From positions 1 to 35,504 of the IMG/VR virus record IMGVR_UViG_3300027985_000565: a stretch of DNA of 35,504 bases. One strand, given 5' to 3'. Positions 18,757-34,728 of this stretch are shown here, in pieces. Below the pieces are notes generated by a model, which worked only from the letters and a program-made list of their open reading frames with translations, searched no databases and had not been told where the DNA came from. The position numbers were made by a program, and so were the translations under genes. The DNA comes from a virus. Each line of letters opens with the position of its first letter. Positions within the stretch are counted from its first letter, which is position 1.

Positions 18757-18968
18757 CACACACTCCTGAGCTTCACAGCGGCAAGGGGAATTCCCCGCTG
18801 CTCTGCCGGCGTCGAGGCGCGTTCAATGGCTTCCATCAGCCGGACGCCCATCTGGGGCATGCTGGGCACCGTTACCCCGGCGTTGAACGCTGCCACGTAG
18901 GCGGCCGCCAGCTGGTCGGTCAGGGCCTGCAGTTCGGTCAGGCGTACCTCTTGCTCGAGCGGGGTCAT
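18756..18968 (-). CDS. small helical protein between methylase and dnaB (70 aa)
   Basis: Unrecognised, largely helical (EQEVRLTELQALTDQLAAAYVAAF and MGVRLMEAIERASTPAEQ). ATG 18968 overlaps the methylase stop as ATGA. It may be a DnaB partner, but that is only a guess from position. Confidence 0.65.
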   Translation of the reverse strand: MTPLEQEVRLTELQALTDQLAAAYVAAFNAGVTVPSMPQMGVRLMEAIERASTPAEQRGIPLAAVKLRSV

Positions 18969-20266
18969 GCTGCCACCCCGCTGAGTTCGGCCTTGGCCTC
19001 GTAAAATGTCCTTATGAACTCCGCCGCGACGACTGGGTCGATGGCATTGCCGTAACCGCGCAGTCGTCCCACACGGGCGGGAGCCTCATGAGCGAGCGGG
19101 AATGAGCCGGGTTCAACTGGCCGGAAGTTTCCATCCCGGCAGAAGAGCCAGTCAGCAGCACCCCTTCCGAGGTCAGGCGCATGGGTCCGTGGGGCGGCAG
19201 GTGATCCCGTTCCCCCATCCCATTCACCACTTGTGTGGTCAAGCTTTCCTGAGTGCCCTTCTTGCCGTTGCTGCGGTTCTGGTAGCCCAGCCGCGCTTCG
19301 TGCGCCAAGGTCGTGGTCCAACCCGCCAACGCTGCCGCCGTCGCTATACTCATCGCACCGCTGCCCTTCCGGTCCGCAATCGCGAAGTCCGGTCCCGCTG
19401 GTGACGCTTTGGTCGTCGGCCAGCCCGCCAGTTGAGCTGCCGATCCTATCGTCAAGCCTGCACCGTTCCCGTTCTTGTGCTTCTGCTTCAGAGCGTTGAG
19501 CCTCACTTGAGTTGTCTCCACGCTGCTGCCAATGTTGAACATCTGCGCATCCGGCGTCGGCCACCCAGAACAGGCGCTGCCTGATGTGCCATCCGCCATC
19601 GATAAGGTCTTCATCAGCCCAGCTGGCAAAATCAGACAGTGCCCGGGCAACCAAGGGATCAGGGCAACACTGAATGGCCCTTCGTAGCCATTCCCCGGCT
19701 TGGCTTTTCCCCCACGCCACGCCGACGCCCGCAGAGCAAAGATCGGCTCCTGCAAAGCCATAGGATGCGTTTTGGAGGTCAGCCGATACAACGTCGAGCC
19801 AGCGGCGCCCATCTTCGCTTGCAACCTGTTCCCCAAACACTTCTGCAGGGCGGCACTCCTGGATGAGCCTTGAAAACTCAGGCCACAGGTGTCGATCGTC
19901 GGCAGGGCGAGAGCACCCGCAATCGAGGCAGATGAAATATCCGGTCTTGAGAGGGTGGCACAGATTACGTTTGCCACCGCACGAAGGGCAGGCCTGCTTT
20001 TTGCCGGCAGCCGAGAATGGAGGACATGGACAAGATCCGGTCCAGACGGGGCGGTCGTCGGGCACCCCGGCAAGCCGGAGGGCATAGCTCCACACGCCGA
20101 TTCCGGCAAAGAAGTGGCATTGAGTAAATCCAGCAAGCTCATCTGCTTGGACATCGGCAATACTCCGTGTGTCAACGACGCCATCAGCGATCACGCCGCG
20201 CCGGATCAGTTCGCGCAGCCAGGCGGCGGCCTTGTCATCGATTTCGTTGTAATAGGCGCCACGCAT
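18965..20266 (-). CDS. DNA (cytosine-5) methyltransferase
   Basis: Transfers a methyl group from SAM to C5 of cytosine. Visible motifs: I (HFFAGIGVWS, 51-60), IV with the catalytic Cys in GSCPCPPFS (77-85), VI (EVFGEQV, 142-148), VIII (HIRQRLFWV, 227-235) and X (RLRGYGNAIDPVVAAEF near the C-terminus). An insertion after motif IV carries six cysteines (C93, C96, C103, C113, C116, C118) that probably bind zinc. The stretch at about 240-385 is Gly/Asp/Ser/Gln-rich and repeat-like, where another protein is encoded in a second frame. ATG 20266 overlaps the upstream stop as TGATG. It is likely used to protect phage DNA from restriction. Confidence 0.93.
   Translation of the reverse strand: MRGAYYNEIDDKAAAWLRELIRRGVIADGVVDTRSIADVQADELAGFTQCHFFAGIGVWSYALRLAGVPDDRPVWTGSCPCPPFSAAGKKQACPSCGGKRNLCHPLKTGYFICLDCGCSRPADDRHLWPEFSRLIQECRPAEVFGEQVASEDGRRWLDVVSADLQNASYGFAGADLCSAGVGVAWGKSQAGEWLRRAIQCCPDPLVARALSDFASWADEDLIDGGWHIRQRLFWVADAGCADVQHWQQRGDNSSEAQRSEAEAQERERCRLDDRIGSSTGGLADDQSVTSGTGLRDCGPEGQRCDEYSDGGSVGGLDHDLGARSAAGLPEPQQRQEGHSGKLDHTSGEWDGGTGSPAAPRTHAPDLGRGAADWLFCRDGNFRPVEPGSFPLAHEAPARVGRLRGYGNAIDPVVAAEFIRTFYEAKAELSGVAA
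19012..20154 (-). CDS. 380-aa protein in a second frame inside the cytosine methylase gene
   Basis: This frame is open for the whole span and has its own start, ATG 20154, with GGAG eight bases upstream. The protein has recognisable features of a widespread but uncharacterised phage family: SLLDLLNATSLPESA near the start, LGNRLQAKMGAAGSTLYRLT, then EPIFALRASAWRG. It has repeated Trp-Pro-Thr motifs (SGWPTPDA, AGWPTTKA, AGWTTTLA). It ends with LNPAHSRSLMRLPPVWDD and a Ser/Arg-rich tail. The Trp-Pro-Thr repeats coincide with Ala-Asp repeats of the methylase frame. Function unknown. An ATG at 20184 extends the frame but lacks a ribosome site. Confidence 0.65.
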   Translation of the reverse strand: MSKQMSLLDLLNATSLPESACGAMPSGLPGCPTTAPSGPDLVHVLHSRLPAKSRPALRAVANVICATLSRPDISSASIAGALALPTIDTCGLSFQGSSRSAALQKCLGNRLQAKMGAAGSTLYRLTSKTHPMALQEPIFALRASAWRGGKAKPGNGYEGPFSVALIPWLPGHCLILPAGLMKTLSMADGTSGSACSGWPTPDAQMFNIGSSVETTQVRLNALKQKHKNGNGAGLTIGSAAQLAGWPTTKASPAGPDFAIADRKGSGAMSIATAAALAGWTTTLAHEARLGYQNRSNGKKGTQESLTTQVVNGMGERDHLPPHGPMRLTSEGVLLTGSSAGMETSGQLNPAHSRSLMRLPPVWDDCAVTAMPSTQSSRRSS

Positions 20267-20853
20267 CACGCCACCCCCTCGCACGCGAACTTGTCGGTTT
20301 CGTTACCCCATACCGCCCATCCGGGAGCGCGGGTTCTTGTGAAAAGTTCGATGCGACGGCGGCGCGGATACATGCGCACGATGTCGCGGCGGAACTCGTC
20401 AGGCTTGCGGCTGTGTTCCCGCACCGGATGGTGCTGCCACTGGCGCACGTCATGCACGGCGGGGCTCAGGTCAGCGCCGCGGGTGCCCAGCAGGCAAAGC
20501 TCCGGGTTTGCTCTGGTGTATTTGCCAAGGCCCATGTGCTCGGCACCTGATGGCTTCTCCTTGGTCCACACGAAGGCGATGGTCTTGTAATCGAAGCCCC
20601 AGCCCTCCATGGCCTCCATGGCGTGTTTGAGCATGGAATCGGTGGTCCACAGGAACAGGATGCAGTTGCGACCCGCGATGGCACCAACAGGCAGCGCCTT
20701 GATATCTTCAGGCGGCATGCACTGGTAGTGCTGGTTGGCGTTCCGGTCTTCGCCCTTCTCCGACCAGTTGGCATAGAGCCACGCCGGATCGGCATAGATC
20801 AGTTGAAAGCCTCCAACGGGCCGGGTCGCAAGCATGCTGTCCCTGTCATTCAC
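20266..20853 (-). CDS. MT-A70 family DNA adenine N6-methyltransferase
   Basis: Likely methylates adenine in phage DNA. The 195-aa protein has the catalytic motif DPAW in FQLIYADPAWLYANW (DPPW-like variant), a SAM-site-like region AVHDVRQWQHHPVREHSRKP, and the C-terminal IELFTRTRAPGWAVWGNE typical of phage MT-A70 proteins. The chosen start is GTG 20853, which overlaps the upstream stop as GTGA and has GGAGG eight bases upstream. It lies next to a cytosine methylase, so the phage may carry two kinds of methylation. Confidence 0.88.
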   Translation of the reverse strand: MNDRDSMLATRPVGGFQLIYADPAWLYANWSEKGEDRNANQHYQCMPPEDIKALPVGAIAGRNCILFLWTTDSMLKHAMEAMEGWGFDYKTIAFVWTKEKPSGAEHMGLGKYTRANPELCLLGTRGADLSPAVHDVRQWQHHPVREHSRKPDEFRRDIVRMYPRRRRIELFTRTRAPGWAVWGNETDKFACEGVA

Positions 20854-21041
20854 GACGCGGCCCTCCACGACTTGATTTCGTTGGCGCGGGCGATGACCTG
20901 CTCTGCGGTGAGGTTGATTGCCCTTTCCACCTTGAACAGGTGTTCTGGGCCGCCTTCATCGGTGAAGGCCATGGAGACAACTGGCTTGATGTTTTTGGAG
21001 CGCAGAAATTGAATTGCGTCTTTCAGGGCGCCGCCGTGCAC
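20850..21041 (-). CDS. small hypothetical protein (63 aa)
   Basis: Unrecognised. It starts with a GTG directly after the TAA of the upstream gene (TAAGTG), with no clear ribosome site, so coupling or a later start is possible. It contains ALKDAIQFLRSKNIKPVV and a helical C-terminus (LTAEQVIARANEIKSW). Confidence 0.55.
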   Translation of the reverse strand: MHGGALKDAIQFLRSKNIKPVVSMAFTDEGGPEHLFKVERAINLTAEQVIARANEIKSWRAAS

Positions 21042-33715: not shown

Positions 33716-33896
33716 AGGATACTGCGGGTGGGGAATTAAAGCGCCATTTTCTGATCTAGTACGCTTTACTGGGTCAAGCGAGCAGCACTCTTGGTGCCAG
33801 TTCTATGAAAAATATGGAATGAACAGGGAAGATGCAGTCAACAACAGTTTTCGCGCCGCCCGCGTCAAGATAACAGAGGTGGGGAAGGATGATTAG
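33702..33896 (+). CDS. small hypothetical protein (64 aa)
   Basis: Unrecognised; Phe/Trp-rich (SEQHSWCQFYEKYGM). ATG 33702 overlaps the previous gene by 14 nt and the next by 8 nt. Confidence 0.6.
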   Translation: MRKNEGYCGWGIKAPFSDLVRFTGSSEQHSWCQFYEKYGMNREDAVNNSFRAARVKITEVGKDD

Positions 33897-34728
33897 GCAG
33901 CCTCTTTTTCAACAGGCTTCGAACTTTTGCGACAAAGGATGGTGGCAGAAAGCGTGGAACAACGCCAGCACGCTCACGACCAACAGAAAGCGCGTGGTCG
34001 GCCTGTCTGGCGGAAAGGACAGCACGGCTCTATCTGTCGCCCTCTCTATCTTCGAACCGGCTGATTACACCTTCGTTTGCACTCCAACAGGAAATGAACT
34101 TCCTGAGATGGGCGCGCACTGGGAAAAGCTCGAAGGCCTACTCGGAAGACCCCTGCTGCGCGTCGGGAGCCGCACCCTGCTCGGCCTGATAGTCGAGCAG
34201 AAAGCCATACCTAACCACGCGCAGCGCTGGTGTACGCGGCTTATAAAGCTCAAACAGTATTACGAGTGGTTGGCTCAGCAAGGCCCCTGCATCTCGTACA
34301 TCGGGCTGCGCGCGGACGAAGAAAGCCGCCCCGGCATGGTGTTCCCGGATCAGGACGGCGTGGTCATGGATTTCCCGATGCGCCGCTGGGGTTGGACGAT
34401 TGACGATGTGTGGGAGTTCCTGCGAGATATGCAGATTGCGGTTCCCGCAAGAACCGATTGTGCCCTTTGCTTTTGGCAGAAGCTCGGCGAATGGTACGAA
34501 CTCTGGCTCAACCACCCCGATCTATATGAGCAGGGCGTTATAGCTGAGGATTTTGTCAGCAATGCGCGTGGGTCTGAGTACACTTTCCGCAGCCCTAGTA
34601 GGGATACCTGGCCCGCCAGTCTACGCGATCTCCGTGCTGAGTTTGAAAAAGGGCGTGTCCCGACGCGCTCCCTTAATGGCATGGATAAACTTCGGCAGAG
34701 CGGCGCCTGCCGTGTGTGCACGCTATGA
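33889..34728 (+). CDS. PAPS reductase-family (PP-loop) protein
   Basis: 279 aa with the PP-loop SGGKDS (40-45) that binds the ATP-type group, then RWCTRLIKLKQ, YIGLRADEESR and a CALCFWQK motif. A second Cys pair (CRVC) ends the protein, so an iron-sulfur cluster or zinc site is likely. Phage members have no proven role; sulfur transfer to DNA or nucleotides is possible because DndC-type enzymes belong to the same family. No dnd genes are seen nearby. Confidence 0.85.
   Translation: MIRQPLFQQASNFCDKGWWQKAWNNASTLTTNRKRVVGLSGGKDSTALSVALSIFEPADYTFVCTPTGNELPEMGAHWEKLEGLLGRPLLRVGSRTLLGLIVEQKAIPNHAQRWCTRLIKLKQYYEWLAQQGPCISYIGLRADEESRPGMVFPDQDGVVMDFPMRRWGWTIDDVWEFLRDMQIAVPARTDCALCFWQKLGEWYELWLNHPDLYEQGVIAEDFVSNARGSEYTFRSPSRDTWPASLRDLRAEFEKGRVPTRSLNGMDKLRQSGACRVCTL

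Follow-up and report, generated by a model that had tools for sequence, protein, structure and literature searches.

What does a second open frame of 380 codons do inside a phage cytosine methylase gene, and is it a gene at all? We address this question in a 35.5-kb virus record (IMG/VR record IMGVR_UViG_3300027985_000565), of which the whole stretch of 35,504 nucleotides, hereafter the window, was analysed. The reading that we favour, at a probability of roughly 0.87, is that a single stretch of DNA at this locus specifies the two chains of one C5 methyltransferase: alpha, the methylase, and beta, nested in its +1 frame, which would be the half carrying target recognition and motif IX.

Two overlapping frames

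Read on the minus strand from 20154 to 19012, the sequence gives 380 codons and a stop with no internal stops, wholly contained in the alpha ORF (18965-20284). The description in the earlier note of a frame with a GGAG-N8-ATG start inside a cytosine methylase gene is confirmed, and each segment that it listed is present: SLLDLLNATS, GSTLYRLT, W-[PT]-T repeats (three) and LNPAHSR. An in-frame ATG further upstream, at 20184, is an alternative start that would give 390 amino acids.

18965..20284, minus strand: alpha, a cytosine-5 DNA methyltransferase ORF of 439 aa counted from GTG 20284 (PHROG 363, E 3.6e-60)
19012..20154, minus strand: beta, the nested ORF (380 aa), in the +1 frame of alpha; proposed to be the subunit for target recognition and motif IX
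20163..20166, minus strand: GGAG, putative ribosome-binding site of beta, followed after 8 nt by the ATG at 20154
20266..20868, minus strand: upstream DNA methyltransferase gene (PHROG 359), whose stop overlaps the alpha ATG

For alpha, the ATG at 20266, which overlaps the stop codon (TGA) of the adenine methylase gene upstream, is a more likely start than the GTG at 20284. The overlap of the end of the PHROG 359 gene with this likely start (TGATG, 20264-20268) suggests coupled translation of the two methylases. Elsewhere in the window, positions 33889-34728 on the plus strand hold a phosphoadenosine phosphosulfate reductase-like gene (PHROG 424).

The alpha family profile matches M.HhaI over a span from motif IV to motif VIII (8e-16). 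The AlphaFold model of alpha is a C5 catalytic domain whose core and motif X helix have pLDDT >90, and a Foldseek search with it returns M.HaeIII and M.HhaI as top matches; Pfam PF00145 scores the window's alpha under its cut-off (15.5 versus 22 bits). In family alignments, alpha carries the C5 methyltransferase signatures of motifs I (FxGxG), IV (PC), VIII (QxRxR) and X (GN). Motif IX, sought between VIII and X, is absent from alpha and its match sits in beta. Judged by these motifs, alpha alone is an incomplete member of the C5 methyltransferases, and AlphaFold predicts a disordered middle at its residues 274-355 (pLDDT 32-40).

20090..20116, minus strand: alpha motif I (HFFAGIGVW), from the family alignment
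20012..20038, minus strand: alpha motif IV with the catalytic PC (GSCPCPPFS; PCQ in most relatives), from the alignment
19904..19990, minus strand: zinc-ribbon-like alpha insert (CPSC...CLDC), with both frames open; weak Pfam matches, common to five relatives
19574..19588, minus strand: alpha motif VIII (HIRQR), from the alignment
19172..19567, minus strand: alpha 'filler' between VIII and X, the same DNA as the beta modules; pLDDT mostly 32-40, substitution frame switched to beta
19040..19072, minus strand: alpha motif X (VGRLRGYGNAI), from the alignment; final helix pLDDT >90

The zinc-ribbon-like insert lies directly after the catalytic PC motif, and PCP replaces PCQ in six of six genes (the window, L046, L066, L082, L122 and L130). 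A second insert, of about 42 residues (19589-19720), lies just upstream of motif VIII in the window copy only and is open in both frames. The window's alpha departs from most relatives in having PCP for PCQ and the insert before motif VIII, and its beta departs from near-invariant residues (W354S and G357R). Because near-invariant residues are altered and an insert is present, activity of the window copy is less certain; the copy may be diverging, with both frames still open through both inserts. The genes of the relatives N15 and epsilon15 lie nearer to the consensus at these residues.

Betas of this family mostly hold two to four modules of about 40 residues each, starting W-P-T-P. In the window, the nested frame divides as follows.

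19723..19848, minus strand: beta core, a predicted helix and strand pair (LQKCLGNRLQ...GSTLYRLT...FALRAS); the best part of the beta model, pLDDT 74-86, where alpha synonymous codons are nearly fixed
19423..19563, minus strand: beta module 1 (WPTPDAQMFNIGSS...), from the module analysis
19321..19422, minus strand: beta module 2 (WPTTKASPAGPDFAIADRKGSG...); cassette also in a fused Gordonia phage enzyme (Sanjuju) and four nested loci
19180..19320, minus strand: beta module 3 (WTTTLAHEARLGYQNRSNGKKGTQESLTT...); cassette also in L030 and L035, whose alpha is of another methylase branch
19060..19122, minus strand: putative beta motif IX (GQLNPAHSRSLMRLPPVWDDC), from a profile alignment (E 4.5e-6) to the IX-X segment of the fused and the split enzymes

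Openness and selection among relatives

A tblastn search of phage records, which is a sample and not a census, found beta in 202 and alpha in 279 of them. Beta lies in the +1 frame of alpha at 198 of 198 loci among the matches listed. These loci were mostly selected by likeness to beta, and a second set was therefore fetched by likeness to alpha. The related-locus search required an alignment as query, the window methylase as a single sequence giving no match. Among the matches listed for the alpha-selected set, the +1 frame is stop-free in 67 of 67 non-redundant genes (counted from codon 45 to the end minus 25), which share ancestry and are not independent trials; at 40-50% methylase identity, synonymous sites upstream of beta are near saturation (third-base entropy 1.76 bits). 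The earlier note had held that homologues with a routinely closed frame would speak against a second product, and the opposite is seen.

Codon shuffles that preserve the methylase protein and its codons carry a mean of 3.3 stops in the +1 frame of the relatives and leave it open 4% of the time; for the window gene the mean is 3.5 stops and the frame is open in 2%. The +2 frame has 11.8 stops, like the shuffles (10.7). Could beta nonetheless be a shadow frame that is never made as protein, owing its openness and its likeness across relatives to the methylase sequence and a high G+C content (61%)? The methylase does impose some likeness, as shuffles still reach a median of 106 bits (maximum 193) against the nested-frame profile; real genes, however, reach a median of 345 bits, and all 67 are open where 3.3 stops would be expected. 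An SD-like site and an ATG are found at the beta start in 141 of 191 relatives versus 21% of codon shuffles. This conserved start and ribosome site and the fixed synonymous codons set in at the beginning of beta, the first 90 or so residues of which are weakly constrained.

The positions of substitutions bear directly on which frame is held. We compared 50 close pairs with at least 75% identity, in which alpha codon position 1 is beta position 3. Upstream of beta, changes are distributed over alpha positions 1/2/3 as.19/.11/.70, and across motifs I-VIII as.24/.10/.66, a pattern that reads as ordinary alpha coding. In the module region, from motif VIII to the C-terminal domain, the distribution becomes.70/.19/.11; because the changes sit at alpha position 1, and so at beta position 3, it is beta that is under purifying selection there. 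Both frames are held over IX/X (.41/.24/.35), and the alpha pattern returns around the beta end (.24/.11/.65). Within the module region, position 1 changes more in 43 of the 50 pairs and position 3 in none, and the pairs are 0.79 identical in alpha and 0.90 in beta. By this measure the alpha frame between VIII and IX is nearly free.

Synonymous sites follow the same course. Among conserved alpha residues with four-fold sites, the entropy of the third base is 1.76 bits before beta, 1.23 inside it over motifs I-VIII and 0.62 over IX/X; it drops sharply from about alpha residue 132, and several sites are 100% fixed in all sequences. The repeats that the earlier note saw in both frames do coincide with methylase-frame repeats (WVADAG, GGLADD and GGLDHD), but its suggestion that both frames are constrained there does not hold, and constraint on the methylase frame alone, which it had raised as the contrary case, is again the opposite of what the module region shows.

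These position-specific substitutions, together with the non-nested homologues, separate and fused, described below, refute the idea of a shadow frame, to which we assign next to no probability. The open frame, the synonymous constraint and the conservation bear out the proposal of a dual-coding gene, and indicate that it is kept in hundreds of phages and prophages.

One set of parts in three gene layouts

In phage databases the nested protein has significant matches to PHROG 31772 (1.8e-25) and PHROG 1008 (4.4e-16), both labelled just 'DNA methyltransferase'. The earlier note had described it as having no known role, a view that its relatives overturn: one-chain methylases carry them in frame as their C-terminal half, and split methylases as a separate second gene.

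The one-chain layout is found in the Gordonia phages Sanjuju (L284) and Derg (L288) and in Mycobacterium phage Filuzino (L289), in which motifs I-VIII, LPTP modules, motif IX (for example LNAAFAEWMM) and motif X (GNGV) follow one another in a single frame. In the side-by-side layout of the mycobacteriophages Arturo (L280; gp76/gp75, 23 bp overlap) and MadKillah (L281; gp6/gp5, 209 bp overlap), gene 1 stops after motif VIII and gene 2 holds the modules, IX and X. The nested layout comprises the window, N15, epsilon15, K1G, Lily, L030, L035, L278, L282, L283, L285 and hundreds more; the non-nested forms were found in actinophages only. The first candidates for a beta standing apart from any methylase frame, L030 and L031, were rejected, as both are also nested, in another methylase branch.

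PHROG 1008 links the three layouts, matching the window beta (4e-16), the separate second genes of Arturo (2e-79) and MadKillah (7e-60), and Sanjuju gp4 over its C-terminal half (3.5e-67). The single frame of Sanjuju gp4 is matched by PHROG 363, the alpha family, as well (8e-78). By HHalign, a profile of 106 betas matches the Arturo second gene with 90% probability (E 1.6e-6), and the beta profile also aligns to fused and split enzymes over their motif IX segment; beta against the fused protein alone is a weak match (probability 1.5). The fused genes also serve as a control for the substitution analysis: in the closest pair (Sanjuju and Derg) changes fall at position 3 in every region, including the modules (.29/.11/.60), a pattern that is less clear in the modules of more distant fused pairs, and each of the three fused genes has stops that close its +1 frame.

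Selection on beta in the module region, the absence of motif IX from alpha and the alignment of the beta tail to motif IX of the other layouts make it most likely that beta is the subunit for target recognition and motif IX, a role drawn from these one-chain and split relatives. Beta might instead be a real protein but no subunit of this enzyme, with some other task such as an anti-restriction or regulatory one, and it does carry extra N-terminal sequence without an assigned role. We consider this improbable, as Gordonia and Mycobacterium phages carry homologous sequence between VIII and X, fused in frame, and beta homologues hold the motif IX that alpha lacks.

The existence of one-chain forms, and of two frames that are offset by +1 and share just the stretch in which a switch would have to occur, also raises the thought of a programmed +1 frameshift near motif VIII that joins the catalytic part of alpha to the beta modules. 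The joined product would be without motif X, however; a conserved SD and ATG mark the start of beta, and split genes exist side by side. The frameshift is disfavoured because constraint on beta sets in ahead of any site at which a shift would be useful, the entropy collapse from alpha residue ~132 lying well before VIII, and we judge it highly improbable. The SD/ATG and this upstream constraint point to translation of beta from its own start.

In the two-chain enzyme that we favour, alpha would be the catalytic large domain with motifs I-VIII and X, binding S-adenosylmethionine and holding the catalytic cysteine. Beta, made from its own ribosome-binding site and ATG, would contribute an N-terminal region, a small core, the row of W-P-T-P modules and motif IX, and the two chains would assemble into the active enzyme with beta in the role of the M.HhaI small domain. 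Assembly and DNA reading we infer from the fused forms and from M.EcoHK31I. The product would protect phage DNA from restriction or mark the DNA.

EBPR siphovirus 2 (L038, 2542-5034) has a LAGLIDADG intein in the catalytic PC motif of alpha, and its open beta frame restarts within the intein DNA. In Mycobacterium phage Seabastian (L279, 1287-2046) the locus is recombined, the N-terminal part of beta running in frame into the second half of alpha, apparently after a frame change. In L007 and L028 the alpha ORF extends some 500-600 nt beyond the end of the nested ORF into further methylase-like sequence, which may represent partial 3' duplications.

Modules, meaning and known systems

Modelled alone by AlphaFold, beta has a mean pLDDT of 58, with its best stretch at residues 99-145. 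Foldseek with this model gave no fold match in the PDB, and PDB sequence searches with beta and with its profile gave no usable match and no solved structure. A poor model may be what is expected of a chain that folds with a partner.

The same module cassettes reappear in differing orders and in distant phages. In single-linkage clustering the largest group (117 modules) merges unlike modules, and we therefore cite the small clean clusters alone. A tentative interpretation, to which we give somewhat less than even odds, is that the W-P-T-P modules are interchangeable DNA-reading cassettes that phages recombine to change or add methylation targets. Because beta is nested, each swap would also rewrite the alpha filler, which tolerates change; if this is true, the overlap is a durable swap site for methylation specificity in a large phage-borne enzyme class.

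For annotation, 'DNA cytosine methyltransferase' entries of phages and prophages, in their hundreds, appear half-annotated: the middle of the annotated protein would be largely filler, and the likely essential reading half lies in the overlapping frame, which is usually omitted. Recoding such a gene for expression would silently destroy beta. As a natural series of fused, tandem and nested forms of one protein, the family is also a test bed for how overlapping genes originate and persist.

Nesting has a precedent in M.EcoHK31I, whose smaller chain, reportedly described by Lee, Kam and Shaw in 1995, is said to be encoded inside the larger gene in another frame and to have 176 aa. The second ORF of the window is likewise nested in a methylase gene in another frame, but beta is about twice as long as that smaller chain and is modular. 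According to PMC3404938, M.EcoHK31I (YGGCCR) is a two-chain C5 methyltransferase with I-VIII and X in the larger chain and IX in the smaller; compared by this description, the window agrees in having motif IX solely in the smaller chain and I-VIII and X in the larger.

The same paper states that the target-recognition domain of M.EcoHK31I is predicted in the larger chain (PMC3404938), and recognition might by analogy reside in alpha here, with beta giving IX only and its modules having another role. This seems unlikely, as the alpha VIII-X interval is nearly unconstrained and predicted disordered, and the modules occupy the target-recognition position of the one-chain forms. Unlike the prediction for M.EcoHK31I, selection and modules here place the whole target-recognition interval in beta.

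M.AquI (CYCGRG), the second chain of which holds motifs IX and X (PMC3404938), is likewise split into two chains after motif VIII in the target-recognition region; the window differs in keeping X in alpha and in its nested genes. Arturo and MadKillah resemble the M.AquI type, with IX and X together in the second chain. The one-chain enzymes Sanjuju gp4 and Derg gp4 have the same parts as the window, including one module common to Sanjuju and the window, but carry everything in one frame with the +1 frame closed. The multispecific Bacillus phage methyltransferases with tandem target-recognition domains, mentioned in PMC8936443, are a parallel only in working with tandem recognition units, theirs being one-chain and one-frame. 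K1G ORF30 ('Mte8-like') and Lily LILY_63 ('g62 internal gene') are annotated examples of this nested ORF, each in the +1 frame of a cytosine methylase gene; both were deposited without a role, and most records annotate the methylase alone. A literature search for published nested phage methylase genes returned only papers citing M.EcoHK31I and an unexplained mention of 'Mte8-like'. A nested two-chain C5 methyltransferase is apparently a known kind of enzyme, and what appears to be new here is a modular recognition region placed wholly in the nested frame, and the breadth of its occurrence.
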